A stretch of 64,000 nt of DNA from Acholoe squamosa (taxonomy: Eukaryota; Annelida; Polychaeta; Phyllodocida; Polynoidae), in NCBI GenBank assembly GCA_949317995.1, contig OX439043.1, positions 1 to 64,000 on the forward strand, given 5' to 3'. The notes under the pieces were generated by a model. That model worked only from the letters and a program-made list of their open reading frames with translations. It did no database searches and was not told the origin of the DNA. How positions within the stretch are numbered: the first letter of the stretch is position 1; every line of letters starts with the position of its first letter. Below are positions 6,591-63,905 of the stretch, in pieces. The position numbers were made by a program, and so were the translations under genes.

Positions 6591-6786
6591 ATATACTTAA
6601 TGAAACAGTGTTATAGATAAGAAAGTGAGGGGTATTTCCCTGGGTCGCTTGGTACGCCCGGGGGTTTTCCCGCCCGGCTACTATAGAACCGCTTGAAAAG
6701 GGTTGTGATGTGGGTTTTTTTCAATGATTTCGTGTAATGTAGCATAGCTGTTTTCCCTTTTCAGTTTCATGTTCTTTTAGTTTTCC

Positions 6787-12330: not shown

Positions 12331-12606
12331 CAGGTATACTTATAAGTTAAGCAGCAAAAATGCCCGGATGTAGGGCAAGCTGCCCTATATACATAAATTA
12401 AGTCTGCAAACATGACATCGGGACTTTTCAACTTGGCTGGTCCGGGGTCCGGGGTCCGGGGTCCGGGGTCCGGGTTTTTCATACAGTTTCTATTGTAAAA
12501 TCTTATTTTAAGTAAAAGAGTCTATGTAAATACATAGCAAAACCCCAGACCCCGGACCCCGGACCCCGGACCAGCCAAGTTAAAGAGTCCCGATTTCATG
12601 TTTGCA
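12331..12606. repeat. Hairpin element type 2, left copy (GGGGTCC/GGACCCC arms)
   Basis: Inverted arms of GGGGTCC heptamers (about 12438-12474) and their complement (about 12541-12571) enclose an AT-rich loop. Outer arms contain CTTGGCTGGTCC and GGACCAGCCAAG, then CTGCAAACATG and its complement. A second copy lies at about 62800-63092. It overlaps the upstream, probably non-coding, extension of the helicase frame. The outer CTGCAAACATG block is shared in pattern with hairpin type 1, so both may be one foldback family. Confidence 0.85.
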
Positions 12607-12980
12607 GAAGGGGAGGGGAAGCATCTGGGATTAAAATTTGGAAAAAATACTGCTTTGTACGGGTTGTAATTAAACAGTAAATGAAAACTACGGTACCCGT
12701 GTCTTTTACTGTTGTTTCACTGTCCCTTTTTTATGTAGACATAAAACATAAGATTCCCTACCCTTAGGACCTCACTTTGGTGTTAGTAAGTCACATGGTA
12801 CTGGGTTAGGCAGCAGTGGGATGCATGGCCATTTACATATACACCAACCAACACCCCATAACGGGTTCAAATGAGCATTAGGAACGAAACTGAAAAAAGG
12901 GGACCGCCTACCACTACAACATCATACTTTTAAGGAGGTTAAGAAAACAATCATTGACGAGGCCGGACATATTTAAAGTC

Positions 12981-13463
12981 ATGACGTCAACACCTTCAAG
13001 GGACATAGTGTTATACATTGCCGGAGAGCGATGTAAGCTGAAAAGGGGCTTAAAAAAAGCGGTGGACTACATTTTGGGCGAGCATGAATCGTCATGGAAA
13101 GTACAAATTAAGGAATTGCGTCTTCTAGGTAAATCTCTAGAGGCTACTTTTATTTTAGTTGCTAGAAAACTTTTTGCAGACAGCGTTTGTTCTTGGGGAA
13201 GAATTCTCACCTTATACGTGTTTGGAGGTTATTTGGCTAAAATGTATATGAAAGACGGTGTTGCAGTCAATATCGACAGGTTTGCAAAAGCAATGGATGT
13301 TGTAGTTCAACTGAAATGGGCTTTGTGGATGGAGGCAAATGGTTCACTAAAGAACATGTTGGATTGCTTTTCAGAACCCATGAATAATGTGATTTGGAAA
13401 GCAGTAGTAACAACACTTGCTATTGGATTTACCGCAATGGCTATTCAAGCAATTCTTTTTTGA
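12981..13463 (+). CDS. Viral Bcl-2 homologue, anti-apoptotic protein
   Basis: A 160-residue protein starting at the ATG at 12981 (the longer frame starts at TTG). The signature BH1 region is at about 64-83: LFADSV, then CSWGRILTLYVFGG, with the conserved W-G-R and F-G-G. A BH2-like WMEANGSLKNML follows at about 116-127, and a degenerate BH3-like segment precedes (LRLLGKSLEA, about 46-55). A hydrophobic C-terminal tail (about 138-160) is a typical tail anchor for mitochondrial or ER membrane. Bcl-2 proteins of this compact form block Bax/Bak-driven cell death; many DNA viruses have captured one. There is no long BH4 loop, as in other viral Bcl-2 proteins. It lies between the helicase (divergent) and the recombinase gene (same strand). 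Confidence in the fold is high; anti-apoptotic direction is inferred from family precedent. Confidence 0.9.
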   Translation: MTSTPSRDIVLYIAGERCKLKRGLKKAVDYILGEHESSWKVQIKELRLLGKSLEATFILVARKLFADSVCSWGRILTLYVFGGYLAKMYMKDGVAVNIDRFAKAMDVVVQLKWALWMEANGSLKNMLDCFSEPMNNVIWKAVVTTLAIGFTAMAIQAILF

Positions 13464-13697
13464 AACTAGTAAACTCAGTGAGTCGATTTCTTAGCGTGAT
13501 AGTGGGTGTGAGTGACATGTGTGGACGGTAAAAGGAGGTCAAGGGAGTAAAGGGACGCGCTGAAAGAGGTTCGCCATTTTGAAATTGCACAAGGGAGGTT
13601 TGATGTCAGACAGAAGGAAAAACTAAAGTTACAGGCGTACTTTGGACCACTACACCTCAAAACAGTGTAGGAGTAGGTGAGTGAAAACACTGTGAAC

Positions 13698-16511
13698 ATG
13701 AATAACGGGAGCAACAGCAACAGTAACAACTATGTACCGCAAACTTCGACGTGTTTCACCATTGCCAGCATATTATCATCCACCCCTAGCAACAAGGATT
13801 ACCGTGCAGAGGCCAGTGAAAATTTACACAATGGAGGTGAAAGTGAGGACGATGAAGAGATTGTATCTGCTACTGCTACATCGTCCTGGTCTAAAAACAG
13901 TATAAATAACGATCAGGATGAGTCTTTACTTTACATAGGGTCTGTTGCTAATGGCACATTTTTGCCTTTAACTCAACACGACCCACGTGATGCCGGTGCC
14001 ACAACCCCTTCTACTCTTTCCTGTTCTTCTCAAGATCTAGAAGAAGAGGCGATGAATGAAATGCTAAATGTTGATGTCAAGGAAAGAGGCCAGGAAGAAA
14101 ACCACGTTCATAAAACCGGTACTATAAGAGGGGCGTCTACTGAAAGAACTGTTGCTAAAAGCGATATTTCCACCACTATCACCATGACTCCTGCTGTAAG
14201 TACCATGTATCTTAGTGACGCCAAAAGTGATGCAGGTCACTCGCCCCACCATGGAGAGTCGGGGAGTACCGAGTGTTGCACCACTACTGTACCCATTGAA
14301 CCCCCTAGCAGTCCCCAGGGAGACGTTAGTTTACCGCCACCGGAGAGTAAAACCCCACAAAAGAAGGTCACATGTGCCTACTGTGGCGGGTCTGTTGTTC
14401 ATCTTCCACGACATTTGCGAGGGTACCATAACTACTCCATTGAAGCATCGAAGTTGTATGCCAAACAAGCCCGGTTTCATAGCGAGCTTAATCCAGTGAA
14501 ATCAACTTCAGACTGTAAAATTAACTTACACTACTCCTGCGCCGTCGAAGGTTGTCATGCTGTTGTAAGACGGGTTAATCGCCACTTGATTCAAAAGCAT
14601 CGTTTCCGCGTGGGAAGTGAACAATATCAACGCTACCACGTCTTGTCTAAATCAGACAACAACAAAAGATATTTACCAAAAAGTAAGTCGGGCTCTAAAA
14701 CCAAAGACGCAGCTAAAAATGATGAAGAAATGGAGGTGGAAGAAAATCTTGAAGAGTATGAAGAGGGAGAATGTGAAACCTCTGTAGAACGTGTCGGTGA
14801 CCTAGTACATGGTTCTTTGTCCCATGAAAATTCTGATTACATCAGTGCACTGAACTCTTTTCTGAGTGACGAGATGAGAAATGAATTAAACAGATACAAA
14901 GAATACCTCATGGATTTCAGTGGTAGTTTGAAAACTCCAGATGTTGCTAGTCAAATGCAAAGGCAGGTTGGGGAAATCCTAAAGGTATTTGGTGAAGACT
15001 TTTCAGATGAAAACCTAACTGAGAACCTAGAGAAACTAGAGCGCAATTTCATTAAAGTGATGTTGGCTAAGGGGAAAACAAAACCACTTCAGGCCAGTAC
15101 GGTTAAAAACTACCTGTTAAGTTTGAACAGCTTTGTGCAGTTTGCCAATTTGAAAAACAGAGACTACATGAGACATCGGGTGGTAGAAAGAATAGGGATA
15201 CAAGTGGGCTTGTGGAACCGTTCCCTTGGAAAACTGATTGCAGAAAGATCCCACGTGACAAAACAGCAGCACCAAAGGGACACCATATCAGTGGACGAAG
15301 TGAATGAATATGTGAACGGAAGTCGTGCTAAGGAAGCCAAAGAAATCTTTAAGAAATTTAGCGACTCTTCTCTATGTGACATTGGCCCCACAACATACGA
15401 CCACACGGTTTCCCGTAATTATCTTATCATGTCGCTCATGTTAAGAAATGCAACAAGGGCCGGCCCAATCATTAATTTAACCATCGACAACGTGATGCAG
15501 GCAAAGGACAACGTGTATAACGGCATTCATGTAATGAATATTTCGAAGCACAAGACAGAGTACACATACGGCCCAGCGCAGTTGTCCCTCAAGGAGGAAG
15601 ATTTTGCTTGTTTACTAACATACATCAACAAGATTCGACCTGTGGGAGAAAACAAAAACCCGGCAAAAGACAATGTGGTGTTTTTATCATGGAAAGGTTT
15701 GGCATTAATGCAGTCACACATAGCTAATATAGCCACCAGAGAGTTGAACGAGGTAAGGGGTTGTAAAAAACGTGCAAGCTGTACATTGGTGCGCAAATCT
15801 ACCGTCACCAGAATACTGCCGATGGGTGTGGGGTCTAAAAATGAACAGGACTTGGCACGTCTAATGAAACACTCTGAAGTAATGCAGAAAAGAGTGTACG
15901 ATTTGAATAACACAGAGCGGGACATGGCCCGTATGGGTGATTTAGTGTCAAAAGCTCTCACGGGTAAACAGTTAACAGAGGTAGAGTTAACCGCAGGAGT
16001 ATCAGCAAAATCCTGCTTGTCGACTCAAATTGAAAACAGTGCAAGTAATACCTTGCCTGTTACAAACACCAACATGTGTGACGCAACCCAAAGTGCCGTC
16101 AATAATACCGGCGAAATGTCCACTGCTCTTTTTACCACGCCTTGTAATTTTGAAGGTGGAGTTAAAAATGCAGTGAACCTGGGCGAGGAATCAATGGCTG
16201 CTGAAGAAAACAATGAACTAAATACAAATAGCATGAACATGACAAAGAGGAAATTTGTGTCTACTGGAAAGGGTCGAAAAAAGTGGCCTCGGTCTCTTAA
16301 ACAGAAAGTTATTAAACTGTTTAAAGATGAAATTGCAGATAGATATGTAACCAACGACATTGTCAGGGACGTTTTGTCTAGAAATCCCAAAGTCTATAAT
16401 GAAGCTTGTGATTTTTACCAGCTTCCAAAGGATATTACCCAAGATAAAATCTGTGTAAAAAGAATCTATGACTTGGTTCGATCAGTGTACCGTGAACCTT
16501 GTATTATGTAG
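13698..16511 (+). CDS. Tyrosine recombinase/integrase with N-terminal zinc fingers
   Basis: A 937-residue protein; ATG chosen at 13698 because the longer frame begins at GTG. Layout: a low-complexity Ser/Thr/acidic region (1-215); two zinc-finger units (C226-x2-C229 with a His pair near 239-244; C281-x4-C286 with H296 and H301); an acidic linker; an N-terminal core-binding domain (about 385-540); a catalytic domain (about 570-745); and a basic C-terminal domain. Catalytic features: arginine in LRNATRAGPIINL (R587), a lysine pair in SKHKTEYTYGPAQL, and the closing LARLMKHSEVMQKRVY with His725 and candidate nucleophile Tyr734. The usual HxxR box is not obvious and may be RKSTVTR. This resembles Crypton-like or animal-genome tyrosine recombinases with C2H2 N-termini. 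Expected function: site-specific integration or excision, plausibly into telomeric DNA. Confidence 0.85.
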   Translation: MNNGSNSNSNNYVPQTSTCFTIASILSSTPSNKDYRAEASENLHNGGESEDDEEIVSATATSSWSKNSINNDQDESLLYIGSVANGTFLPLTQHDPRDAGATTPSTLSCSSQDLEEEAMNEMLNVDVKERGQEENHVHKTGTIRGASTERTVAKSDISTTITMTPAVSTMYLSDAKSDAGHSPHHGESGSTECCTTTVPIEPPSSPQGDVSLPPPESKTPQKKVTCAYCGGSVVHLPRHLRGYHNYSIEASKLYAKQARFHSELNPVKSTSDCKINLHYSCAVEGCHAVVRRVNRHLIQKHRFRVGSEQYQRYHVLSKSDNNKRYLPKSKSGSKTKDAAKNDEEMEVEENLEEYEEGECETSVERVGDLVHGSLSHENSDYISALNSFLSDEMRNELNRYKEYLMDFSGSLKTPDVASQMQRQVGEILKVFGEDFSDENLTENLEKLERNFIKVMLAKGKTKPLQASTVKNYLLSLNSFVQFANLKNRDYMRHRVVERIGIQVGLWNRSLGKLIAERSHVTKQQHQRDTISVDEVNEYVNGSRAKEAKEIFKKFSDSSLCDIGPTTYDHTVSRNYLIMSLMLRNATRAGPIINLTIDNVMQAKDNVYNGIHVMNISKHKTEYTYGPAQLSLKEEDFACLLTYINKIRPVGENKNPAKDNVVFLSWKGLALMQSHIANIATRELNEVRGCKKRASCTLVRKSTVTRILPMGVGSKNEQDLARLMKHSEVMQKRVYDLNNTERDMARMGDLVSKALTGKQLTEVELTAGVSAKSCLSTQIENSASNTLPVTNTNMCDATQSAVNNTGEMSTALFTTPCNFEGGVKNAVNLGEESMAAEENNELNTNSMNMTKRKFVSTGKGRKKWPRSLKQKVIKLFKDEIADRYVTNDIVRDVLSRNPKVYNEACDFYQLPKDITQDKICVKRIYDLVRSVYREPCIM

Positions 16512-17650: not shown

Positions 17651-20600
17651 ATGCCTCTTTCACATGAAGTAATTTTTGGTAGGGCGTGTTTTGCTTGTGA
17701 ACAGGGATCAATACTCACAAGTAAACCAGATTTATTTCTGAAGCAAATCGAAAATGTTGAGTGTGCTCTACAGGAGGAGTACTTTTTGTACGTACCAGAC
17801 ATTTGCACCCTAGACTATATTCATGAATGGAGTCGGTCTTGTAATGCACAAGATGGAGTTACAGGGATTATTGTTTTAGAGCGCATCACAAAAGAACAAA
17901 AATGTGCCACTCTCGCAATTCCTTGTGGTTTGGCATTGTTTACATGCCCAAAGGACGAAAGAGACATTATTTTACACAGTGCCAAATTTAGTAATGCACA
18001 TTTAGTTAAAGGTCACATTAAACTGTTGTGGTTTTCAGTGTTACATATAATAAAACTAAATACACTACTGGCACGTGAGGTGAACGAATTGTGTCATAGC
18101 TGGAACAATTTGTGGAATGTTTCCATGGACGTTATACACAGAAGTAAAAGGAATACATTGTACCCACATGTTCTACCACAAAAAACTTTTTACGAGAACA
18201 TGGCCGTACTTCAAAATGTTTTTTCAGAATGGAGCACTAAGGTTAGGTCGGTTCAAGCTGAGTCTTTGTGGTCTAAAGACAATAACAGTTTACCGAGAAA
18301 TATAAGTGCGTTAGAGCACATGTTTCTTTCCTTCCATGTTCTTTTGCGGTGGCATAGAGACCGTCATGTGGATCCGTTTACAATGTTAAGACATATTATG
18401 AAAAACATAAAAGTAACACAGGAATATAGAACGAACGACAAGCAACTAGGTGAGACCCTAGAAGGTGGACTGAAATTTGATCCACGGTACCACGGAATGA
18501 TGGCAAGACTAACAGGGTGTTATGGTGATTTACGCAATCAACTAACTGCTGCTTATAAAAAGCTCTGTAATATAATGTTTGACAATGGAGTCATTGTATA
18601 TAAAGAACTAACAGTTCCAATGCAATCAAGACGTACAGTATTTAAAGTTGTTCCATTGTATACTGGCCATGTCACTGAAAAGTTTATTGAAAATTCGATT
18701 GCCTCTGTACCTTTGTCTGTTTTTGACACTTTCGCTATACAAAAATGGTGCAAAAGTAGAAAAACTGATTTGCTAGAACACACTCTCAATCCAAATGTAG
18801 TTTTCCAATCAGTTTATAAAGATGTAAGACCCGTATTCGATGGAAACAACAAAACCTTCCTGCGGCTGTATGGCAATTGTGAGGATCTTTTACAGATCAT
18901 GAATAAAAAAGAGCCTTTATATTACACTTTTCAGAACTTGGGCACGTTAGAGCATGGACGGCCAGAAACACCAGCTTTGCCTTTAATTGGATTGACGAAA
19001 GCCACCATTCCTCGATCTAGATCACCCTTTCATTTAAGTGGTAAATCAGTGACTAAAATTAGGTTAGTGGAGGCAGGAGAACATTGTACACCCATATGGG
19101 CAAGACCCACAGAAAATGGCGGCATGAACTTTATGCGAATTGTTCCCGCCTTAAAGAAACCCTGCCAAACTAAACAAAAAATGTCTTCTGTGGCTTCAAT
19201 GCAGGACTTAATAACAAAAAACATGTATCCATTTAAAGAAAACAAATTGGTTTCAGGAACCACTAACGAGTATTTACAGAGCGGTCTTCACTGGTCTAGT
19301 TTTGTGGCTGACATTGACCTTAAGCTTGCCGGTAAAGACGTACCTGTTCCGGACATTAATGCCTTGAGTAAAGATGTGGTTGCCGCTTTTGATGCTATGT
19401 TTCAATCAATTTTTCCAGGTCAGAAAATAAGAAAACATCTAGTCTTTTGTTCGACCCGCGACAGTGATACCATAAAAATTGGATTGCACCACCATGCACT
19501 GTTACCAACCGGTCTCGTATTTACATCTTCTGCATGTCGAGATTTAGCCGGTATGTTGGAAACCATTCGCCATGCCTATCCCAATACTTTAGGAATTGAA
19601 ACATGGGAAGACGAGCCTGCATATGATTTAAGCGTGTATCCCATTCCAACAAAAGCTGGTGATCCTGTAGGCCACTGCCTAAGAGGTCCTTCACAAGTTA
19701 AGCATGATGGCACACGTCAATTAAAGTGTGTTTTAAATACAAGCGACACGCCTCTTACAATAGATGACATACTGGTTCATGGGCCTCAGTATACTACCCG
19801 GGAAGATGGGGGGAAAGTAATTTTTGGTCGTGTCGTTAAAAATTTTGAAGGAGTGCAACACCTTAAAGACGTGGCTTTTTTTAAGGATTATGAAGCTAAG
19901 GTGATGACAAAAAATATGAATCACGTTTGCTTTAAAAATGTGAACGATATTGCCAGGGAAATCAATAAAAGAAGTTACATATTTCCAGAAGGAAAAAACC
20001 CGGTTCCTTTATTGTTGGAAATTCTCAACAGTTTATGGAAGCAAACTAACAGTGGCAAATTTCTTTTGGTTCAACACCTTAAAACAAAAGAAGGAAGAAA
20101 TGGCAAAAGATATGATAGTACATTCATTAATAATGTGGACAGGTTCTCCAGGTTCGTCTACAACAATGCAGAAAAAACCATAAATCTTGTCATAAACAAT
20201 GATGCAAATTGTAGCATGCCTTTATGTATTCGATATCCACATAACACACGTTCCGGTAAAGGGGTTCAAGTAACTGTGAATTACTCCTCTAAAATGATAA
20301 AGTTTGTCCTGTTTATGTCCAAGTGCTTTAAAGCCAGATGTCAGGCTAACTTTGATTTAAACTTCTTTTTACCAAACATAGTTTTACCGATGCCTAACAT
20401 CTTTATTAGTACCCCTGTGCTCAAAGGCTGTGATAAAATGTGTGCTACATTCTGTGGATCAAAAGTAAGGGTTATACAACTGAATCCATGTTTTTCTTCA
20501 GAGCAATATCCATTTACAAACATGTACGAGGATGAAAAGATAGAAGATGCGTCTCTCAGTGAGGTTGCTCAGTTTGAAAAAATAGAAATAGCTCACGAGG

Positions 20601-20878
20601 GAGAGGGAGTTAACAAGTACTTACAAAACAAAAGTCTAGAAGACACTGTTCGCTGTCTGTACATGTTTGTACCAAATAGCATACTGGCATTTTGTTTGAT
20701 AGATAGCATGTATGTAGTTTGTTTCTCGAGACCTCGTCCTGCTATAAATACAAGCCAAAAAAGTACTGACTATGTTATAGTGTCGATGAACCCTGTCTTT
20801 ATATATCAATACCTTAATAAGAAAAATGTTATAAGTCAAACAATTTTAAACGAACTAAAAATGTTAATGGTCGATTAA
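17651..20878 (+). CDS. DNA primase, herpesvirus UL52-like (archaeo-eukaryotic primase fold)
   Basis: A 1075-residue protein, close in length to herpesvirus UL52 primases. The catalytic core lies at about 545-700: VADIDLKL gives the metal-binding D554-x-D556; KIGLHHHALLP (609-619) gives the nucleotide-binding Lys/His motif; AYDLSVYP supplies the third acidic residue (D659); LRGPSQVK (678-685) matches the arginine/lysine motif typical of the herpes-pox primase group. The C-terminal 250 residues are cysteine-bearing (near CDKMCATFC) and may contain the zinc motif found in UL52 proteins. It would synthesise RNA primers in the nucleus with a helicase partner; here the SF3 helicase at 10302 is the likely partner, as no UL5-type helicase is seen. 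An AATAAA follows the stop by about 45 bp. Confidence 0.85.
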   Translation: MPLSHEVIFGRACFACEQGSILTSKPDLFLKQIENVECALQEEYFLYVPDICTLDYIHEWSRSCNAQDGVTGIIVLERITKEQKCATLAIPCGLALFTCPKDERDIILHSAKFSNAHLVKGHIKLLWFSVLHIIKLNTLLAREVNELCHSWNNLWNVSMDVIHRSKRNTLYPHVLPQKTFYENMAVLQNVFSEWSTKVRSVQAESLWSKDNNSLPRNISALEHMFLSFHVLLRWHRDRHVDPFTMLRHIMKNIKVTQEYRTNDKQLGETLEGGLKFDPRYHGMMARLTGCYGDLRNQLTAAYKKLCNIMFDNGVIVYKELTVPMQSRRTVFKVVPLYTGHVTEKFIENSIASVPLSVFDTFAIQKWCKSRKTDLLEHTLNPNVVFQSVYKDVRPVFDGNNKTFLRLYGNCEDLLQIMNKKEPLYYTFQNLGTLEHGRPETPALPLIGLTKATIPRSRSPFHLSGKSVTKIRLVEAGEHCTPIWARPTENGGMNFMRIVPALKKPCQTKQKMSSVASMQDLITKNMYPFKENKLVSGTTNEYLQSGLHWSSFVADIDLKLAGKDVPVPDINALSKDVVAAFDAMFQSIFPGQKIRKHLVFCSTRDSDTIKIGLHHHALLPTGLVFTSSACRDLAGMLETIRHAYPNTLGIETWEDEPAYDLSVYPIPTKAGDPVGHCLRGPSQVKHDGTRQLKCVLNTSDTPLTIDDILVHGPQYTTREDGGKVIFGRVVKNFEGVQHLKDVAFFKDYEAKVMTKNMNHVCFKNVNDIAREINKRSYIFPEGKNPVPLLLEILNSLWKQTNSGKFLLVQHLKTKEGRNGKRYDSTFINNVDRFSRFVYNNAEKTINLVINNDANCSMPLCIRYPHNTRSGKGVQVTVNYSSKMIKFVLFMSKCFKARCQANFDLNFFLPNIVLPMPNIFISTPVLKGCDKMCATFCGSKVRVIQLNPCFSSEQYPFTNMYEDEKIEDASLSEVAQFEKIEIAHEGEGVNKYLQNKSLEDTVRCLYMFVPNSILAFCLIDSMYVVCFSRPRPAINTSQKSTDYVIVSMNPVFIYQYLNKKNVISQTILNELKMLMVD

Positions 20879-21025: not shown

Positions 21026-23173
21026 ATGTATTTTGTGTTCCGTCAATGCAAAATATTATCTTTTGCACTTAATTGGTTTTTAATAATAGGCTTTTTACAT
21101 ACCAACTGTTTATGTAACAAGATTCTTAGCATGCCTTCTGAATACAGTCGTGTAAATTGGGGTGTGGTTTTCACTAAGGTGGGCACCGTATTAAACGGTG
21201 TAACAAAGTATCGTCATACTTTTGCTCTTCCTATTCCTAACATGGATTACAAACCTTTAAACTCCATTAACTGCTCTGCACACACGCACGACATGGCACA
21301 CTGCAATGCAATAAACGAGCTTTCTACGGTGGTCAGCAACGGTTATAAAAAAGAGTTTGGGCTCATGAAAGAAAGCATAAACAATGTTCTGTCTGCCATT
21401 GGTAGGGTGGAAGAAAACAGCTCAAGAGGCCGCAAAAGAAGAAGCACATACGATACTCAAACGTCTGCACCACATCTGTCGCCAAATTTTTGCAACAACA
21501 GTAAAGTGGTAGGGTCTGATACCGGCGGCGGCCTTTTGGCTACTATGGGCAGGATCGGAAGTGACCTACTTGGCACTCCAAACTGGGGCGATGTTAAATT
21601 AATGGACAAACACATGTGTGAACTTGCAGATACTGTTCATATGAACACGGAGGAAATAGTTCGTTCCGAGGAGACTTTGTCCTCCTTGTCTCACATGATA
21701 GACGGTGAAAATAAAGCCTTACAAAGCGGCCTTCGCAACATAAATAAGCGCATTAATGAAACTGATGCGGCTCTTAAAAGATTGGGTCGAAGAATGACAA
21801 ATGACTTAAACAGTATCATGACAAAGGTGTCATCTCTTGCTACTGCTCAGGCAGCCACCCTAACTCTTTTAGGCAACTTGGAACATTACAGAATGGTAAC
21901 TAATCGTTATCTAAAGTATAGCCGGGACTGGGTTTTAGGTATCAATAGACTTTTAGAAGGTTACATTCCACCTAGACTTATACAAACCACCGACATTCAA
22001 AAAGTCCTGAGGCATGTTAATAATGTAGAGTTACCAAGACATCCCCAGTTAAGGTTAGTTTATCCAGATCCATCATTTTATTACAAGATTAGATCGACAG
22101 CTTACACCCGTTCTCAAAACTACCTTTTCATCACTCTGACCATCCCGTTAAAATCAGTAGGTGGAATCTTAGGTGTGTACCGTGTAGACAAAACGTATAT
22201 TGCAACAGCTGAGCATCACAAGGCGTCTACACGAATAGCTAACCTGCCGGATTTTTTTGCAGTGACTCCAAATGCACGTTACTATACTGAATTGTCTCTT
22301 GCACACTATACTTCTTGTCGGGGTGAGGAAATTAAAGTTTGCTCCACAGAAAGAGGATTACAGGATACAAATCATTTAACATGTGGAGCAGCACTTTTTT
22401 ATGACGACAAAAGAGCTATAGCAAAGCACTGTGATGTACGCGTTGAACTAACAGATCAACCTACTGAAGTAATACGGTTAGAAAGTACAAGGTATCTAGT
22501 TCATTCTTATAATGCTGGACCAGACACACCTTGGGTAGTACACTGTCCCTATTTAAATGCATTGCCGGGAAATACGGCCACTGAACACCTTAGAACCACT
22601 ACTTCATGCAACACGTGCATAGTTAAAGTTCCCTGCGGCTGCTCCTTAACAGGCATCGGCTTTTACATTCCCTACGAGTTTACCGGTTGCGATTTCAATG
22701 ACCATTTAGGTTTTCCAGATGTAATCAAAGCCTTTCCTGTTAACTTGCATGTTATAACTTCTTTGTTCGATGAGGATGATATCAGACATATAAATGGAAG
22801 CTCGACCCATTCAGATCCATCCACCACAAACCCCCTAATGTTATCAGATTTGTTCTTAAATGTTACTGAAAGCAATTGGGACGGGGTTGTGGAATCACAT
22901 GAGAAGTATACTCAGGACTTTAATCACATGATGGCACTCCACAAGAACAATTCAAAAATATATTCTGACAGGGCTACAGCATATTTAGAAAAAGCAGAGA
23001 ACTTTAAAGACTTAGCCATGTCTCACATAAAGGATTTGGAAAACACATTTGGCGGGACCTCATATAAAACATTTTTTAATCCTTCTTCGTTTATAACCGC
23101 AGCAACCCTTTTTTGGTGTATTGCCATTTCTTCATTTATAATGACCATATATACTTTTTGCACTAAACGCTAA
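21026..23173 (+). CDS. F-type class I fusion glycoprotein 1
   Basis: A 715-residue type I membrane glycoprotein. An N-terminal hydrophobic segment (about 9-28) looks like a signal peptide. The GVVFTKVGTV and HTFALPIPN block (about 46-71) is typical of baculovirus-F and gypsy-type Env ectodomains. A strong furin site RGRKRR (134-139) is followed by a glycine-rich segment and a long heptad-containing region (about 190-290). Further on are a cysteine cluster (CNTCIVKVPCGCSL, then FTGCD), several N-x-S/T sites, a membrane-proximal helical region, a transmembrane segment (about 686-711) and a very short CTKR tail. Expected role: membrane fusion at entry after furin cleavage. It shares layout with the genes at 41614 and 43560. 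The family call rests on architecture and recognisable blocks. Confidence 0.75.
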   Translation: MYFVFRQCKILSFALNWFLIIGFLHTNCLCNKILSMPSEYSRVNWGVVFTKVGTVLNGVTKYRHTFALPIPNMDYKPLNSINCSAHTHDMAHCNAINELSTVVSNGYKKEFGLMKESINNVLSAIGRVEENSSRGRKRRSTYDTQTSAPHLSPNFCNNSKVVGSDTGGGLLATMGRIGSDLLGTPNWGDVKLMDKHMCELADTVHMNTEEIVRSEETLSSLSHMIDGENKALQSGLRNINKRINETDAALKRLGRRMTNDLNSIMTKVSSLATAQAATLTLLGNLEHYRMVTNRYLKYSRDWVLGINRLLEGYIPPRLIQTTDIQKVLRHVNNVELPRHPQLRLVYPDPSFYYKIRSTAYTRSQNYLFITLTIPLKSVGGILGVYRVDKTYIATAEHHKASTRIANLPDFFAVTPNARYYTELSLAHYTSCRGEEIKVCSTERGLQDTNHLTCGAALFYDDKRAIAKHCDVRVELTDQPTEVIRLESTRYLVHSYNAGPDTPWVVHCPYLNALPGNTATEHLRTTTSCNTCIVKVPCGCSLTGIGFYIPYEFTGCDFNDHLGFPDVIKAFPVNLHVITSLFDEDDIRHINGSSTHSDPSTTNPLMLSDLFLNVTESNWDGVVESHEKYTQDFNHMMALHKNNSKIYSDRATAYLEKAENFKDLAMSHIKDLENTFGGTSYKTFFNPSSFITAATLFWCIAISSFIMTIYTFCTKR

Positions 23174-28095: not shown

Positions 28096-29046
28096 TCACA
28101 TAAGTCTATCTATCTCTTCTGTTTGCACAATCGCATGTCTACAAATTGGGCAATAACCGTGACCAGCAAACCATCCGTCTGCACATTCTGTATGGAAAAG
28201 GTGGTTACATTCTGTGAGAGACAAAGACCAGCCCAGAATCCCTCCTGCTTCAGATTTTAATGCTAAACTGTCCAGGCAAATAGGGCACTCTTCATCTCTT
28301 TCCTCCCTCAAGTTTTGCTGAACTTGTTCCGGTTCCGGTACTGGTTCCGGTTCTGGTTCAGGTGCTGGTTCCGGTTCAGGAGCTGGTTCCGGTGCTGGTG
28401 CTAGTCTACGGCGACGTCTCTGTGCCATAGTCAGTGGTTTCTTGCGCCTTTGTTCTTCCGGCTCCTCAAGATCATCAGTGTCCGAAGAATCCACTGAGTA
28501 TGGCACAGGGTGGGCAGGTTTCAGTTTTTTTAAACAACTTTTGCAGTTAGAGTTCTTGTTTTTTTGCAATGGGGTTCGAGTAGGTAAAAGATATGAAACC
28601 CCAACGAATTGTACATCCAAATCAGAGTCTGTGTCCGACTCTGCTAATGGTGGTGTGGGCCTTGCAGAGTCGGACACCCCCGCACCTGGAGTGTTAAGTA
28701 GCGGGGCCATTTGTTGCCTCATCCTCCTCTCCTCCTCTAATTGGGCCTGCTGATCTTCTTCTTCTTCCCTTAGCTGCTGGGCTAGGGCCTCCTCCTGCCG
28801 CCTTTGCTCTTCCTCCCTTTCCCATTGGGCTAGGGCCTCCTGCCGCCTCTCCTCTTCTTGCTGTTGTGCCTGTACAAGTTTCCTGTCCTTGTGAAGGGCT
28901 TTAAGGGCAGTAAGAGTGTGCCTCATAAGCACTGTACCTCTTGGATAACGTGGTAAAAGACCATCTTCATTAACCGTCGCTTGCATCTCTTCTACCCAGG
29001 CACTTAGGGCCCCAAGAGTTTGAAGTGCCTGCTCTGTAGTAGCCAT
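28096..29046 (-). CDS. RING-H2 finger protein, probable E3 ubiquitin ligase
   Basis: A 316-residue protein starting at ATG 29046. An N-terminal helical region (1-60) is followed by a Glu/Gln/Arg-rich coiled coil (about 60-125), an acidic Ser/Asp stretch (about 135-155), a basic patch (AQRRRRRLAP) and a P-E-P-A repeat tract (about 225-250). A C-terminal RING-H2 domain follows: CPICLDSL, then C-N-H-LFH-x2-C, then CPIC, which is the C3H2C3 ligand order. The domain would bind an E2 and transfer ubiquitin; targets cannot be read. Its duplicate at 26251 has lost the RING. RING proteins with charged low-complexity regions are common in invertebrate herpes-like and baculo-like viruses. The TATA context is unclear. 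Confidence 0.85.
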   Translation of the reverse strand: MATTEQALQTLGALSAWVEEMQATVNEDGLLPRYPRGTVLMRHTLTALKALHKDRKLVQAQQQEEERRQEALAQWEREEEQRRQEEALAQQLREEEEDQQAQLEEERRMRQQMAPLLNTPGAGVSDSARPTPPLAESDTDSDLDVQFVGVSYLLPTRTPLQKNKNSNCKSCLKKLKPAHPVPYSVDSSDTDDLEEPEEQRRKKPLTMAQRRRRRLAPAPEPAPEPEPAPEPEPEPVPEPEQVQQNLREERDEECPICLDSLALKSEAGGILGWSLSLTECNHLFHTECADGWFAGHGYCPICRHAIVQTEEIDRLM

Positions 29047-30658
29047 GTCTAGTGTGTGCAAGTGTGCAGTGAAGGGCTGGAGTACAGGAGATGTGCACAG
29101 GCTGGCTGAGGGAGGCCAAGTCAGTAGGGTCCCTCAGTGTCCCTGTATACAGTTGGGTGGGTGGGGGCTTACTCCAGGGGTATACTGTGTTTTGATTGGC
29201 TCTCACTGTGTCTCTCTTTATCTTCTATGAAAACTGAACTTCCACGATGGTAAACTTTAACATAAATATATTAGTCTTCAATTAAGCCAATTAACCTTGT
29301 ATTATTTACATATTATGCAAAGTTATGTTAAACATGTAAAAGGGACCTGCATTAATCCATTTCTTACACCATAAGCACCCATACTCCACCATACCTGTAC
29401 TATCCATATATACATAAGAAGGCGAGAATTGATTTCTTTTTATTTTCAAAGCCTCAACGCACACACATCGCTGGTAAGAGGTCGTAGGTTAATGTTCATT
29501 TGCATTTAGGTGACATAAAGGTGTAGATGTGAAGATGTTGTCATAGGCCATAGTCCAAGGAGTCTATACATCATGAAAATGACGTTAGTTACCTAATTAG
29601 CATTAGGTTGGCCTAATTAACCTTAATAAGTGTACATGTAACCTTATATAGTCAGCATGTTGCATTCAGGTGTTCATTTAAAGATGCATTCAACCACTGT
29701 ACTACCCATATATATGCACGCATCGGAGGTAAAAGCTAAGTTTTTGCCATTTTTTAAAGCATTGGCATGACTACATGAACGGTAAAGGATGTTAGGTTAA
29801 ATTGTTATCGCCCTGTCTAAAAGTAATAGTACCGGTGTACTAAATTTCAAAGTTTAATTCTTATTTCCTTATTTACAGCACGGCTCTTGAAAATGGCTTC
29901 CACAAACCTAAACTTAATATTACACTTAGGTGCCATAAGAGACACCCCTAAAAAAGCTCATAGAAACCTTTTCAGTGGCCTCGGTTAGTTTCCGTCCTGA
30001 ATTCACATGCACGCTGTCACTTAAAATACAACATATGTATAACATTAGTTTTACCAAGTTGATACACTAGATGGCGCTCAAGTAGCCCCACTGCTTACAT
30101 GGGCATGTGAAGCATCTACTCCCAGGGCTCCATAGGGTTACCCTTAGTACACAGACACCCCTCACAAAACTTCCCATTTGCAATGTAAAATAGAGCTCTA
30201 TGTTTCAGAAATTAAAGCTGGACACAGAGAAGTACTGTGCAAATAATCACTATTAATATTTTAACAAAATGATAAGCCCAACATAAGGCAGATCATTAGA
30301 AACATGTTAACCTATTATAGGTACTGAAGTCCAAACCAGCCATGCCCCTGTTGGAGTAGCAAAGTGGCATGGTTGCCACTAGCACCATCTGCTGTATTAT
30401 AGCTGATGAAAGGGCCGTTATGAAACTGTATAAAAATCCAGGACGGGAAATCACATCCGAAACAAATAAAAGGGAACCCGCCCGCCCCACACAACCACTC
30501 CCCACTCCCCTTTTGCAAACGTATAATTGGAGATCTTTTCCCACGTGCCATTGGTGTTTGTATGCAAAAGGTGAATGGGGTAGTGTGGGGGTAAATAGAT
30601 TAGTAAAGATACTGTTTTTTTCATTTGGATAATAGCAACCGACGGAAAACAATTTCAG
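29047..30658. other. Long non-coding region with repeat units and a hairpin relic
   Basis: It contains two copies of the divergent unit described in the 27.0-28.1 kb gap (about 29380-29500 and 29690-29860, each with TACTATCC/TACTACCC, CATATATA, GAGG/AAGG and an AAGC(C/A)T block). It also holds a CACTAGATGGCGCTC motif at 30065-30079 and a degenerate copy of hairpin type 1 (30481-30600). Open frames of 78-118 codons on the minus strand at 30296-30652 overlap the hairpin relic and look spurious. Confidence 0.55.
30481..30600. repeat. Degenerate hairpin element (type 1 relic)
   Basis: Arms CACTCCCCTTTTGCAAAC and GCAAAAGGTGAATGGGG flank a short loop; TTGGAGATCTTTTCCCAC matches the TTGGGGGTCTTCCCAC block of the intact elements. 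The GTTTGC hexamer tract is reduced to a single unit. It appears to be an older, shrunken family member. Confidence 0.65.
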
Positions 30659-57643: not shown

Positions 57644-58585
57644 TCAACGGTTACAGTACCGAGGAACAACTTGGTCCCCTCTCCGTCCCACCGGCGGTTT
57701 ATCTTTACTCGAAGAGGGAACCTTTTGATCTCTACTTCCACCATATCTTTGAATGTTTTCTACCCAATGAAACCAAGGGTGTAGAAGGATTTCTGTAACT
57801 GCTAAGCGTGTCTTTGGATCTTTGGACAACAAACATTTTACCAAACAGCAAGCCTGCGAACTAAGTCCATCCGGTAAATTATATTCACACATTCTTATCT
57901 TTCGAATCATTTTGTTTACATCTCTGGCAGGAAAAGGATAAGAACCCGTTAGAAGACAATACAAAATCACTCCCAACTGCCACACAGTTCCTGCTCTCGG
58001 ACAAAATGCATCTTCGTTGAAATACTCCGGAAACATGTAACGGGCTGGAATCCGTCCCTGAATCGCAGCAGAGGTTTTCACTAATCCATCCCTTTTTATT
58101 AAGCGACCTAGCACTTCCAGCTTTATTTGAGTTCGTGCACCTTTAATTAAAATACAGCTGGCCGTGCCAAGATGTCTAGGGACAATGTCATTTCGGTCAA
58201 GAGCACACACTGCCAAAACAATTTGACGGAAAATACGTGCAGCGTCGGCTTCCTCTAATCCACATCCTCTTTCCGTAATGAGACTATATAAAGTAGTGTT
58301 GTATTTCTGCGTGAAAACTAAGACACAGTTATCTTTTTTTACGATTTCTTCTATATCGATCACATGCTCCTTTACATTTTGCCATTGTTCTGTAAGAAAG
58401 ACGTTGTTTCTAAGAGGTAATGCTCTGCAACTATATTCCTTTCCCGTCTCAATGTTAACACAGTTAAATTCTTTGTAAATGCCTATTATGTTGTGATTTA
58501 ATTTCGTCAGCAAGTAATTCCCTATTTGGTTCCCCACAGGAGGTGCATATGCATTTATGTGTTCATCACACAATTCAAAAGACAT
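57644..58585 (-). CDS. Tribbles-like pseudokinase A
   Basis: A 313-residue kinase-fold protein most like animal Tribbles. The N-lobe has EYSCRALPL where active kinases carry VAIK, with the lysine replaced by arginine. The catalytic loop HRD is replaced by PRHLGTASCIL and the DFG position by KLEVLGRL, so it is a predicted pseudokinase. The C-lobe is well kept: TVWQLGVILYCLLTGSYPF and the Tribbles-typical ILLHPWF (MEK-binding motif in animal Tribbles). The C-terminal tail ends GDQVVPRYCNR, matching the DQ-hydrophobic-VP motif that binds the COP1 ubiquitin ligase. Expected role: scaffold that brings COP1 to host substrates. Tandem duplicate of the next gene. Confidence 0.88.
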   Translation of the reverse strand: MSFELCDEHINAYAPPVGNQIGNYLLTKLNHNIIGIYKEFNCVNIETGKEYSCRALPLRNNVFLTEQWQNVKEHVIDIEEIVKKDNCVLVFTQKYNTTLYSLITERGCGLEEADAARIFRQIVLAVCALDRNDIVPRHLGTASCILIKGARTQIKLEVLGRLIKRDGLVKTSAAIQGRIPARYMFPEYFNEDAFCPRAGTVWQLGVILYCLLTGSYPFPARDVNKMIRKIRMCEYNLPDGLSSQACCLVKCLLSKDPKTRLAVTEILLHPWFHWVENIQRYGGSRDQKVPSSSKDKPPVGRRGDQVVPRYCNR

Positions 58586-58711
58586 GACGACCGTTCACCA
58601 ACACTCAAATGTTCAAGATACACTTACTGTCTATGTTTACATGCTGTTTAATAGTACATTTCCTTCTATAGCAAAAACACTCCTATAACTTAAAGACAGT
58701 TTACATGAGTG

Positions 58712-59650
58712 TCATGACTTTTGATACCAAGGAACAACTTGGTCCCCTTCCTGTTCCACAGACGGTTTATTTTTACTCAAGGAGGAAACCTTTTTATCTC
58801 CTTTTTCTCCGTATCGTTGTTGGTTTTCCACCCAATTAAACCAAGGATGCAGGAGAATATCTGTAACAGCTAAGCGTCTTTCTGGATCTTTGTGCAGCAA
58901 GCATTTTATTAAACAACGAGCCTGGGAACTTAGTCCATTTGGTATAGTGTATTTGCACAGTTTTATTTTTTGAAACAGCTTTTCTGTTTCTCGGGCAACA
59001 AAGGGATAAGTTCCCGTTAAGATGCAATATAAGATCACTCCCAAATGCCAAACACTTCCTGCTATTGGAGAAAACGAGCCTTTGCCCAAATACTCAGGAA
59101 AGACGTAGCAAAGTAACATACGTCTCTGTAATGCAGGGGTGTCGACGCTTAATTGACCACCTTCCAGTAAGTGTCCTAGGAGGTTTAGCTTTATTTCAGT
59201 TTGTGCATCGTTTGTAATAACACATTTGGTCAAAGCAAGATTCCAAGGCACCATCCCGTTCTCATTAAGAGCACACACGGCCACAACGATCTGACGAAAA
59301 ACACGGGCAGCATCAGCCTCCTTCAATCCAGATTTTTTCTCACGAAGAAAACTATGTAGAGTAGTGCTGTATTTCGGCACAAAAATTAAAGCACAGTTAT
59401 GTCTTTTTACGATTTCCATGTCGATCATGTGCTCCTTTACATTTTGCCATTGTTCTGTGAATACCACATTGTTTGCAATGGGTAAAGCTTTGCACTGATA
59501 TTCCTTTCCTGTGTTTATGTTAAAACAGTCGAATTCTTTGTAAGTCCCTTGTACAGTGACATTTAGTTTAGTCAGCACGTAATCCCCGATTTGTTCACCC
59601 ACAGGAGGTGCACATATGTCTGTCTCTTCAGCACCTGGTTCCGTAGACAT
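58712..59650 (-). CDS. Tribbles-like pseudokinase B
   Basis: A 312-residue paralogue of the previous gene; the ATG at 59650 aligns with the start of the sister protein (APPVGEQIGDYVL against APPVGNQIGNYLL). The ATP-site lysine is kept here (EYQCKALPI), but the HRD loop is PWNLALTKCVI and DFG is absent (KLNLLGHL). C-lobe motifs SVWHLGVILYCILTGTYPF and ILLHPWF are intact, as is a terminal GDQVVPWYQKS. The two genes and about 100 bp of 3' flanking DNA (GCTGTTTAATAGTA at about 57523 and 58645) were duplicated together. Different decay of the ATP site suggests functional divergence. Confidence 0.88.
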   Translation of the reverse strand: MSTEPGAEETDICAPPVGEQIGDYVLTKLNVTVQGTYKEFDCFNINTGKEYQCKALPIANNVVFTEQWQNVKEHMIDMEIVKRHNCALIFVPKYSTTLHSFLREKKSGLKEADAARVFRQIVVAVCALNENGMVPWNLALTKCVITNDAQTEIKLNLLGHLLEGGQLSVDTPALQRRMLLCYVFPEYLGKGSFSPIAGSVWHLGVILYCILTGTYPFVARETEKLFQKIKLCKYTIPNGLSSQARCLIKCLLHKDPERRLAVTDILLHPWFNWVENQQRYGEKGDKKVSSLSKNKPSVEQEGDQVVPWYQKS

Positions 59651-59886: not shown

Positions 59887-60345
59887 ATGGCCCGGATTGA
59901 CAAATTCAAGGATTTAATCTCAAGGCTAAAAACCTTCAAAGCAGAACAATGGAGGACACATAATTCGAAGGAGTTCACAGAAAAAGTTGCAATAAGTGGA
60001 TTTTTTCAAACTAAAAACGATTACGAGATACAGTGTTACCAATGTGGAACTCTTGTACATACATATATTGAATTCAACAAGTACGACACAGCATGCTGGG
60101 AACATTTCATGCAAGCTCCTTTCTGTCCCTTGGCCGAGGCAGCCATAGATATGTCACGTCATCAAAAGCTGGGTTTTAAAAGGTTAATCACCCGTTTCAA
60201 CAACCTACAGGAAGAAGTATACAGATTAAAGCTTAGCCGGCCAGTGTGTGCAAAAGGAGAAAAGTACAAGGACGAGGAGAAGGAAGAGGAGGAGGAGGAG
60301 GAGGAAATAATAGAAATACCGATGGCGTGTGCAGCTAAAAAGTAA
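59887..60345 (+). CDS. BIR-domain (IAP-like) protein, 152 aa
   Basis: ATG at 59887. One BIR domain at about 20-85: FTEKVAISGFFQTKNDYEIQ, then CYQC (C50, C53), the EFNKYD region, and WEHFMQAPFC with H73 and C80. These four are the C-x2-C...H-x6-C zinc ligands of BIR domains. The usual tryptophan after the zinc cysteines is replaced. There is no RING, so it is not a complete IAP; the C-terminus is a Glu-rich acidic run ending in MACAAKK. Single-BIR proteins in viruses usually bind caspases or IAP antagonists, or mitotic partners of the survivin type. An AATAAA lies at 60375. It is the last gene before the right-hand repeats. Confidence 0.88.
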   Translation: MARIDKFKDLISRLKTFKAEQWRTHNSKEFTEKVAISGFFQTKNDYEIQCYQCGTLVHTYIEFNKYDTACWEHFMQAPFCPLAEAAIDMSRHQKLGFKRLITRFNNLQEEVYRLKLSRPVCAKGEKYKDEEKEEEEEEEEIIEIPMACAAKK

Positions 60346-60678: not shown

Positions 60679-60984
60679 GATATCAAAAGACTTAAAAGTG
60701 AAACAAATGGAACTTTAAAGTACTTACCGGTTAAGTGCTTAAACACCAACCCGCCTGTTCCCACGGGCTTTTTTAGCCCACTTAAAAGGGTCTATATCTC
60801 CTTTTTCCTGTCCCCTCAGGATGTGTGTGGTGCACATATTTGCGGGCACTGACACATTCCTCTGTTAAATTATCAACCTGTGAAGCACGGGATAGCCACT
60901 TAGTGCCGCTAAAGTGCTGTAAAACACAAATCAATTAATCAAAACCGCCTGTTCCCATAGACTTTAGTGTTTAAACTGCTTTCT

Positions 60985-61384
60985 ATAGGATAACTGTCCT
61001 ATGTTATAAGGATGATAGCAGTGTACTGAAACATAATTTAGTTGACTGTAAATAAGGCGGCCCTTTGGTTACCATGGTTACTGCACCCACTGACCTTTTA
61101 CCACTGTTACCATAGCAACAGCATTTTTACCCCCCGCGCTGCCCCTCCCCCTCTTGCAAACATGAATTGGGGGTCTTCCCACTGTAGTGTTGGCGTTTGC
61201 GTTTGCGTTTGCGTTTGCGGGTAGTAATTTATATGGGGTATATATATATAAAAGGGATTTTATAAATTATCGAGCGCAAACGCAAACGCAAACGCAAACG
61301 CAAACGCCAACACTACAGTGGGAAGACCCCCAATTCATGTTTGCAAGAGGGGGAGGGGCAGCGTGGGGGGTAAAGATAAATGCT
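60985..61384. repeat. Hairpin element type 1, right copy (inverted)
   Basis: The hexamer palindrome occupies 61127-61373, with GCGTTT tracts on the left arm and CAAACG on the right. The flanking DNA on its left (CCATGGTTAC...CCACTGACCTTTTACC) is the complement of that right of the left copy (6460-6590), so the two copies are inverted relative to each other about 55 kb apart. Confidence 0.85.
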
Positions 61385-61420
61385 ATTGTACAATTAAAAC
61401 GGGTGTAAGGGTGTAATACA

Positions 61421-61432: not shown

Positions 61433-62100
61433 CACTTTCCCGTCCCCTGGAGTGTGTGTACTGACACATTGATTTATGAATTTTTTTAATGTAGTTCTCG
61501 CCGTGAAGATGAAAATGGCATAAAAACAGTTACACATTTAATAATTACACTTTATTCAAATGTACAGTGAATGTAAATTATAATGTAGCCACTGACACAT
61601 TGATCTATGAAATGCAAACACCGACACATTCATTTATAAAATTGTGTAATGTAGTTCTCACCGTGAATATAACCTCGGGTATAGAAATGGCGTAGCTTAA
61701 TAACCATGCCAACCACCATCATGTTACTTTAAAAACTCAACAGGGAATATATCTCCACTTTCCCGTCCCCTCAAATGTGTGTGTGTGTGTGTGTGTGTGT
61801 GTACCGACACATTCATCTATGAAATTGTTTAAAGTAAATTAATGTTGGTTGTCATGGTGAGGGCCTTATGTTCACTGACACATTGATCTATGAAATTGTG
61901 TAATGTAGTTCTCTCACCGTGAATATGACCTTAGGTATATAAATGGTGTAGCTTAATAACCATGCCAACCACCGTCATGTTACTTTTAAAACTCAACAGG
62001 GAATATATCTCCACTTTCCCGTCCCCTCAAATGTGTGTGTGTGTGTGTACCAACGCATTAATCTATAAAATCATGTAGCTCTCATTTTGCCAAATATGTC
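61433..62100. repeat. Satellite block 1 (about 163-bp family)
   Basis: Diverged copies of a unit that starts CTTTCCCGTCCCCTCAAATGTG, continues with a TG run, ACATTGATCTATGAAAT, GTAGTTCTC and CATGCCAACCACC. The key block occurs at 61435, 61757 and 62014. TG dinucleotide runs at about 61780-61801 and 62034-62048 vary in length. Confidence 0.75.
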
Positions 62101-62204
62101 ACCTACTTTCCATAGGGACCAATGTTAAAGGGATATAGTTAAGCAGAGAATGAACAGGATAAGTTTACGAATGTAATTAAGAGCTGGAGTATCGTGTGAC
62201 ACAG

Positions 62205-62590
62205 TTACCAGAGTTTGGGGTGGGGGCAGCAAATGGGACCTGTCTAACCTGTCAGCACCTCCGGGGTCAAGGGTCAAACCAGACGTTGAAACTGTTAGAA
62301 TTTAAATTTGAGGATCAAAACAAACAACTGTCATCTCTTTATATGCAATATACTAGCATGACACTTTCTTCATTTTATATGAGTCATTGGTATATTGGTC
62401 GATGCATTGAAATGTGTGAAAATGGCATGTTCATTTATGTTCTATAAAGAGTAATTTAGCTATTACTAGACACCCTTTCTCCTAAGCCTCACATCCACAG
62501 TGTACACAGATATGTGAGGCTGTCACTGGGTAATCAATCAGATTTGCTCACCCTGTGGTTTTGGCGGTGGTGTACAACCAAACTGAGCAT
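62205..62590. repeat. Dispersed repeat, copy 2
   Basis: Same-orientation diverged match to about 33495-33905. It lies between satellite block 1 and hairpin type 2. Confidence 0.6.
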
Positions 62591-62799
62591 GAGTATATCC
62601 CTTTAAAGCACTCCCCAAAATTACATCACCCTATGTAGAGTAAAAGAAATACAGACCATAAAGAGTATGTCACATATTTACAGTGCTGAAGTTGGTTGGA
62701 GTAAATTAATGTTGGTTGTCATGGTTACACAGACACTCTTTCTGATTGGTTAAGCTAAACTTTAAGTAGGACAGTGCTGGTTGCCATGGTGATAAAGTT

Positions 62800-63092
62800 A
62801 TTCCTCCTGCAAACATGAAATCGGGACTCTTCAACTTGGCTGGTCCGGGGTCCGGGGTCCGGGGTCCGGGGTCCGGGGTCCGGGTTTTTCATACAGTTTC
62901 TATTGTAAAATCTTATTTTAAGTAAAAGAGTCTATGTAAATACATAGCAAAAAACCCGGACCCCGGACCCCGGACCCCGGACCAGCCAAGTTGAAGAGTC
63001 CCAATGTCATGTTTGCAGACTTAATTTATGTATATAGGGCAGCTTGACCTACATCCGGGCATTTTTGCTGCTAACTTATAAGTATACCTGTA
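62800..63092. repeat. Hairpin element type 2, right copy
   Basis: GGGGTCC arms at about 62844-62883 and the complement at about 62955-62981, with the same loop (CATACAGTTTCTATTG) as at 12.4 kb in the same orientation. The outer flank to the right (GACTTAATTTATG through TATAAGTATACCTGTA) is the complement of the flank left of the 12.4-kb copy. Thus loop and flank have opposite relative orientations in the two copies. Confidence 0.85.
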
Positions 63093-63885
63093 CAGGAATA
63101 TATCTCCACTTTCCCGTCCCCTCAATTGTGTGTGTGTACCGACGCATTGATTTATAAAATCATATAGTTCTCGCCGTGAATATCACCTTAGGTATATAAA
63201 TGGTGTAGCTTAATAACCATGCCAACCAGCATTATCTTACTTCAAGTAGCTGAACACATTGAATATGCGACATAGCACACACTATTCTACATCATTTCTA
63301 TTACATGACCTCGGGTATATAAATGGCATAGCTTAATAACCATGCCAACCAGCATTACCTTACTTTAAAAACTCAACAGGGAATATATCTTCACTTTCCC
63401 GTCCCCTCAAATGTGTTTGTGTACCAACGCATTGATCTATGAAATCGTGTAGTTCTCGCACATGAATATGACTTCAGGTATAAAAATGGCGTAGCTTAAA
63501 AACCATGCCAACCACCGTGATGTAACTTTAAATACTCAACAGGAAATATATTTCCACTTTCCCGTCCCCTCAAATGTGTGTGTGTACCAACGCATTGATC
63601 AATGAAATCATGTAGTTCTCGCCATGAATATAACCTTGGGTATATAAATGGTGTAGCTTAATAACCATGCCAACCAGCGTTATGTTACTTTAAAAACACA
63701 ACAGGAAATAAATCTCCACTTTCCCGTCCCCTCAAATGTGTGTACCGATGCATTGATCTATGAAATCATGTAGTTCTCGCCGTGAATATGACCTTAGGTA
63801 TAAAAATGGTGTAGCTTAATAACCGTGCCATCCACCATTATCTTACTTTAAGTAGCTTTACACGTTGAATATGCAATATACAATA
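63093..63885. repeat. Satellite block 2 (about 163-bp units)
   Basis: CTTTCCCGTCCCCTCAAATG at 63393, 63557 and 63719 gives periods of 164 and 162 bp; an earlier copy at 63108 is followed by a longer, rearranged unit. Each unit carries TATAAA/TATATAAATGG and CATGCCAACC. Confidence 0.8.
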
Positions 63886-63895
63886 CACTGTTCTA

Positions 63896-63905
63896 CACAC
63901 ACACA

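Follow-up and report, generated by a model that had tools for sequence, protein, structure and literature searches.

Tribbles is an animal scaffold that joins substrates to COP1. Towards one end of the window (the whole 64,000-nucleotide stretch of DNA that was analysed), two neighbouring open reading frames (ORFs) resembling Tribbles lie among virus-like genes. This raises the question of whether a large DNA virus has captured an animal Tribbles gene and, if so, what two such proteins might do to the COP1 system of their host.

Two adjacent ORFs encode divergent Tribbles-derived pseudokinases

The earlier note on this DNA had described two proteins here, each with ILLHPWF and a terminal DQVVP. 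Both ORFs were found, on the minus strand, with ILLHPWF placed by hand from the ORF:

57644-58585, minus strand: Tribbles-like pseudokinase copy B, 313 aa (Pkinase PF00069 E 3.8e-20; best PDB match TRIB1, E 7.9e-33)
57770-57790, minus strand: ILLHPWF of copy B, at the end of the C-lobe; putative MEK1 motif of TRIB1
58712-59650, minus strand: Tribbles-like pseudokinase copy A, 312 aa (PF00069 E 6.2e-16; top PDB match TRIB1, E 2.1e-38)
58838-58858, minus strand: ILLHPWF of copy A, at the end of the C-lobe; putative MEK1 motif of TRIB1

The two ORFs are intact, run without interruption and stand head to tail. The span of copy A is counted from its ATG, the mechanical ORF beginning six codons upstream at TTG. 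The copies are 59% identical in protein and 72% in DNA, which, together with their head-to-tail order, is taken as the mark of a tandem duplication.

Both copies were compared with 177635 distinct PDB sequences. The results showed that copy A ranked TRIB1 first (E 2e-38) and TRIB2 second (2e-33), the best non-TRIB sequence being STK40 (4e-17), and that copy B likewise ranked TRIB1 (8e-33) and TRIB2 (1e-27) ahead of the best non-TRIB sequence, the SNF1-like ssp2 (2e-19). TRIB2 led the best non-TRIB entry by 53 bits for copy A and by 27 bits for copy B, and copy A scored 136 bits against TRIB1 versus 66 bits against human STK40. These rankings confirm that copies A and B are divergent Tribbles-derived pseudokinases, as had been proposed, closer to TRIB than to other kinases. 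Identity to copy A ranged from 31 to 39% among the 120 TRIB hits listed. A direct protein search with copy A alone gave no match at E <= 0.001 among 741 candidates; because this method reaches only proteins that share exact 5-residue words with the query, the null result reflects divergence rather than absence.

Phylogenetic analysis joined copies A and B (support 100/100). The branch that bears them is very long and falls outside both vertebrate clades, TRIB1 and TRIB2. Support for a grouping of the viral pair was 49/23 with all vertebrates and 90/81 with all invertebrate-like rows. The highest local (BLAST) scores came from lophotrochozoan-type TRIBs (the annelid Lamellibrachia, abalone and others), and for copy B Xenopus TRIB1 lay within about 1 bit of the best score. 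A tryptophan following the place of Y134 is common to the viral copies and the annelid and mollusc rows shown and is absent from the two mammal rows shown. In topology tests, the viral pair was joined with TRIB1 (p-AU 0.19), TRIB2 (0.17), mollusc-like (0.34) or annelid-like (0.39) sequences. None of the four unions was rejected (p-AU 0.17-0.39). Judging from these comparisons, the donor of the captured gene was probably an animal.

Catalytic motifs, the SLE switch and most of the activation segment are lost

HRD and DFG, previously reported as lost, are indeed missing from both copies, the aligned places reading NLAL/HLGT and LL/VL. The aspartate and lysine of the catalytic loop are gone as well. 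At the place of K120, which we take to be the ATP-site lysine, copy A has K and copy B has R. An alignment of 35 TRIB rows gave 100 columns conserved in at least 33 rows. Both viral copies keep 43 of these and a single copy keeps 13, the other 44 being lost from each; when the four columns of the COP1 motif, which are not in register, are set aside, the corresponding counts are 42, 13 and 41 out of 96. HPW is near-invariant across the TRIBs of the alignment.

59063-59176, minus strand: activation segment of copy A, residues 159-196 (position from the ORF by hand); SLE lost, HGCPA largely lost

The SLE switch, which replaces DFG in Tribbles and reads GLE in several invertebrate rows, is not kept: a gap covers E227 and D228, L or V replaces S225, and only L226 is retained. 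For this reason the copies are called Tribbles-derived or Tribbles-like, and divergent, rather than canonical Tribbles. The HGCPA activation segment is mostly lost, copy B retaining its P and A in the alignment, and the viral copies lack two further features of the TRIB rows, the N-terminal extension and the FF at the end of the protein. C/EBP factors had been suggested as targets; with the C/EBP-binding activation segment and the SLE switch largely not kept, that suggestion is not supported.

Both tails keep the core of a COP1-type motif and copy B carries two

The COP1-type motifs of the two tails are as follows:

57662-57676, minus strand: distal motif of copy B, DQVVP, 5 residues before the C-terminus
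57716-57730, minus strand: proximal, second motif of copy B, DQKVP, 13 residues past HPWF
58730-58744, minus strand: motif of copy A, DQVVP, 5 residues before the C-terminus, with the same codons as the distal motif of copy B

Both proteins thus finish with GDQVVP and five further residues. The proximal motif of copy B had been missed in the earlier note; copy A reads DKKVS at that site. In 200000 shuffles of each tail, DQxVP arose by chance 293 times for copy A and 585 times for copy B, and the looser [DE]QxVP 937 and 713 times, respectively, so that the motif in the viral tails is more than chance would give. Across the six-frame open segments of at least 60 aa in the window (35371 residues), DQxVP occurs only once beyond the distal motifs, namely as DQKVP of copy B. 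[DE]QxVP was present at least once in 117 of the 120 TRIB hits and twice in none of them, one hit (P0076) having QxVP twice. The possession of two DQxVP motifs by copy B is therefore a new feature relative to these 120 hits.

The COP1-binding consensus is given as E/DQxVPE/D, with V and P critical for binding, in the accessible part of PMC7923445. The result showed that the viral tails have W or R after VP versus E or D in 96 of 116 TRIB hits (non-acidic in the other 20), and that HPWF and the distal motif are separated by a 31-aa linker in each copy, versus 15-24 aa in the 116 hits. The proximal motif of copy B lies closer to the usual TRIB distance than the distal one. Retention of the COP1-binding motif, as claimed before, is accordingly true of the DQVVP core in both copies, but not of the full consensus or of its spacing.

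The automatic alignment did not bring the viral tail motifs into register with those of the TRIBs, and positional homology of the motif columns was dropped for that reason. When the motif columns were counted as kept (4 of 4, a figure that relies on matching by eye) and compared with the 42 of 96 other TRIB-conserved columns kept, Fisher's test gave p 0.04. Copies A and B are not independent witnesses for this retention. The comparison is thus only suggestive of a preferential retention of the motif over other conserved columns.

The copy A tail is predicted to be disordered and accessible

The AlphaFold2 model of copy A (pLDDT 80.5) has the TRIB pseudokinase-domain fold. Its best PDB match by Foldseek was TRIB1 (5cem, E 3.1e-21), ahead of the first non-TRIB structure (2.3e-15). 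Residues 292-312 have pLDDT below 50 and are not confidently packed on the body, so that in the model the tail of copy A is predicted to be disordered and accessible. ILLHPWF lies within the folded end of the C-lobe, with block mean pLDDT values of 97 and 91.

The copies have been under constraint since duplication

Comparison of copy A with copy B gave dN/dS of 0.273/0.708 = 0.39 (codon bootstrap 95% 0.28-0.54), implying that the copies have been constrained by purifying selection after duplication. The N-lobe and the C-lobe each have dN 0.19 versus dS of 0.58 and 0.76, respectively. The activation segment, with 34% amino acid identity and dN 0.56, is the least conserved among the compared regions longer than five codons. 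GDQVVP is encoded by six identical codons (100% amino acid identity), the second-longest run of identical codons between the copies after TEQWQNVKE in the N-lobe, and the five codons that follow it have the lowest identity of all regions (20%). Identical codons in the motif mean that constraint on the protein is indistinguishable from a scarcity of mutations there. Of the earlier proposal of selection on an adaptor function, purifying selection since duplication is upheld, and retention specific to the motif is marginal (p 0.04).

The pseudokinase pair lies in a virus-like element beside a telomere-type repeat

Long ORFs are tightly packed from 6.8 to 60.3 kb. Pfam was applied to 29 of the 35 ORFs of at least 120 aa in the window, and the features of the surroundings are:

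1-5360, no strand: (AACCCT)n telomere-type array at the start of the contig, 894 copies, 99% matches
12954-13463, plus strand: Bcl-2 family ORF, 169 aa (PF00452 E 1.1e-12)
13677-16511, plus strand: weak tyrosine-recombinase-like ORF, 944 aa (PF00589 E 8.7e-5, under the curated cut-off)
17651-20878, plus strand: primase-like ORF, 1075 aa (sub-threshold UL52 match)
21026-23173, plus strand: F-like candidate envelope fusion protein of 715 aa (Baculo_F match below threshold, an RGRKR site and a hydrophobic C-terminal stretch)
28096-29061, minus strand: RING-finger ORF, 321 aa (PF13639 E 5.9e-11)
59887-60345, plus strand: BIR-domain (IAP-like) ORF, 152 aa, adjoining the pseudokinase pair (PF00653 E 3.3e-7)

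The viral setting claimed for the pair is borne out in the sense that virus-like genes surround it, and we regard the element as a large DNA virus that either is integrated at telomere repeats or ends in them. The primase-like ORF had one homologue (P0001, 41% identity over 99% of the query, on a 34.6-kb contig) among 5.8 billion proteins, of which 3664 candidates were scored; the sub-threshold UL52 match is not shared by this homologue. The contig of P0001 may belong to another member of the lineage that this virus represents.

Pfam detected no nimaviral core genes in the 29 of 35 ORFs, about 58 kb of the element being in view, and no herpesviral capsid, terminase or polymerase in the same ORFs, where the sub-threshold UL52 match was the only one of this kind. 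Scans of IMG/VR with Tribbles copy A, the Tribbles alignment, the primase, the primase alignment, the F-like protein and the recombinase-like protein confirmed no relative, and a phage collection searched with the primase gave no match. PHROGs returned nothing useful for five ORFs, and no Rfam family reached its gathering score. In PDB sequences no match up to E 1 was found for the recombinase-like ORF, the primase alignment and two large ORFs, and none at E <= 0.001 for the BIR ORF. The PF00589-matched stretch of the recombinase-like ORF has no HxxR. A structure of the primase-like ORF modelled from two sequences was discarded (pLDDT 29.1).

Some further observations were made on the element. 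The near-perfect AACCCT array, of the telomere type of animals, closely precedes it, which could reflect either integration at a telomere or telomere-like virus ends. The ORF at 21026-23173 is a candidate for a class I fusion protein, and the element that carries it has no recognised virus family. The BIR protein has a single BIR and an acidic run near its C-terminus, and with the Bcl-2 and RING genes it suggests a gene set for the control of apoptosis. Palindromic elements of two kinds, about 260-410 nt long (6198-6605, 60980-61385, 12350-12611 and 62803-63072), with GTTTGC and GGTCCGG repeats in their arms, occur twice each, 50-55 kb apart and 91-97% alike; they could be replication origins or miniature transposons. 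Past the last gene, the block 61433-63897 holds degenerate repeats of about 160 nt, some of them tandem, together with TG runs; it lacks any ORF of at least 120 aa and is probably non-coding.

A pair of COP1 adaptors with changed substrates is the favoured reading

In host TRIB1, according to reviews, substrate binding by the body is followed by movement of the SLE loop and release of the tail, which binds the WD40 domain of COP1, and COP1 ubiquitinates the substrate (PMC8235551 and PMC11120034, in the portions available). The best explanation of the present locus, and one to which we give slightly better than even chances, is that one animal Tribbles gene was captured by the large DNA virus-like element and then tandemly duplicated, yielding a pair of COP1 adaptors with changed substrates. 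The viral proteins would be catalytically dead scaffolds. Their disordered tails would dock on the WD40 domain of host COP1 by means of DQVVP, to which DQKVP may be added in copy B, the kinase-like body would hold a host protein, and COP1 would ubiquitinate that protein, leading to its degradation.

The computed evidence in favour of such adaptors consists of the ancestry, the missing catalytic motifs, the motif core in both copies, the purifying selection and, in the copy A model, the disordered tail; against them stand the lack of an acidic residue after VP, the 31-aa linker and the failure of the automatic alignment to align the motifs. Little of the C/EBP-binding activation segment and the C/EBP-sensing SLE switch survives, and copies A and B are unlike in these parts, which makes it probable that each addresses a host protein of its own. 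The same losses mean that the tail may be permanently exposed. A bolder version remains tentative and, in our judgement, has the odds against it: a virus-made adaptor pair freed from the host autoinhibition switch, one of its tails bearing an additional COP1-type motif and the substrate surfaces having diverged, would form a targeted-degradation system that reprograms a host ubiquitin ligase via a pseudokinase.

The main rival to adaptors is that the tails bind COP1 and the bodies recruit no substrate, in which case COP1 would be titrated away from host TRIB and its normal targets would be stabilised. Loss of SLE and of most of the activation-segment substrate site, the two candidate motifs in the tail of copy B and the predicted disorder of the copy A tail are what such titration would lead one to expect. 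However, the two lobes change slowly at replacement sites, with dN well under dS in each, and fold confidently, which mere capture of COP1 would not need, and we regard this explanation as doubtful.

It is less probable still that the bodies bind MAPK or AKT kinases, as host TRIBs are reported to do, and modulate signalling, the tail being incidental. ILLHPWF is exact in both copies and is listed as a MEK1/2-binding site in the part of PMC11120034 available, and the earlier note has it bind MEK in animal TRIB proteins. As evidence for MEK binding it was dropped, since the motif sits in the confidently folded end of the C-lobe, where it could be retained for other reasons; HPW hardly varies among TRIBs, and the MEK1 motif is itself termed putative in the portion of PMC8235551 at hand.

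We likewise give little credence to the view that the tail motif is an ancestral residue without present use, the proteins acting by the body alone or decaying. The absent acidic residue, the longer linker, the missing FF end and the DKKVS of copy A agree with disuse, but both ORFs are intact, dN/dS is well below 1, and the motif forms a block of identical codons between changed ones. Finally, it is very improbable that the locus is subtelomeric host DNA in which retrocopies of Tribbles stand in tandem next to unrelated genes: the contig does open with 5.36 kb of telomere repeat, IMG/VR confirmed no related viral contig, and the F-like, primase-like and recombinase-like matches all fall under Pfam cut-offs, but long ORFs are densely packed over 6.8-60.3 kb and F-like, primase-like, Bcl-2, BIR and RING genes occur together.

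If the virus uses Tribbles, COP1 becomes a viral target in animals. Should the adaptor reading be true, the two diverged copies would be a natural experiment on the COP1-recruiting and substrate-choosing parts of Tribbles, and proteins that have lost the SLE switch and kept the tail motif would directly test whether autoinhibition is dispensable.

Comparison with known systems

The viral copies resemble animal TRIB1, TRIB2 and their invertebrate orthologues in having TRIB1 as the nearest kinase fold, in the loss of catalytic motifs, in ILxHPWF at the end of the C-lobe and in a DQxVP COP1-type motif within a tail that is predicted to be disordered. Unlike animal Tribbles, they lack the SLE switch, the catalytic-loop D and K, most of HGCPA, the N-terminal extension and the C-terminal FF end, and they have a 31-aa linker, W or R after VP and, in copy B, two motifs. 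STK40 (SgK495) is a Tribbles-related pseudokinase of related fold in which a COP1 motif is present, according to the available text of PMC8235551.

The earlier note knew of no described viral Tribbles with this motif. None was found among the papers listed by full-text searches of the open-access literature, as judged from titles and the beginnings of abstracts, a scope that mostly leaves subscription papers outside; these searches also gave no paper joining tribbles with nimavirus, or STK40 with iridescent virus. There is, however, a partial precedent. A protein of Armadillidium vulgare iridescent virus named Serine/threonine-protein kinase 40 (A0A068QKJ7) ranked second in BFVD (E 1.1e-15), with only 20% identity to the viral Tribbles-like protein, the comparison being by BFVD match and name. 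Among the best 50 of 751 BFVD matches and the open-access searches, this is the nearest viral precedent, and no viral protein with the present features was found there.

As regards the element, crustacean endogenous nimaviruses (majaniviruses) are likewise large DNA viruses that reside at telomere repeats, and they carry genes captured from their hosts as well as BIR proteins and a tyrosine recombinase; they insert in crustacean (TAACC)n, whereas the repeat here is (AACCCT)n (PMC10871703, as far as accessible). The word tribbles is absent from the main text of that paper. Acipenserid herpesvirus 3 of sturgeon (AciHV-3) is also a large DNA virus, with TTAGGG terminal arrays, chromosomal integration and a Bcl-2-like gene (PMC12031113, in the part available). 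AciHV-3 is an alloherpesvirus with recognisable core genes, whereas the present element has only the sub-threshold UL52 match, together with BIR and F-like genes. By analogy of lifestyle, majaniviruses and AciHV-3 are the nearest parallels found.
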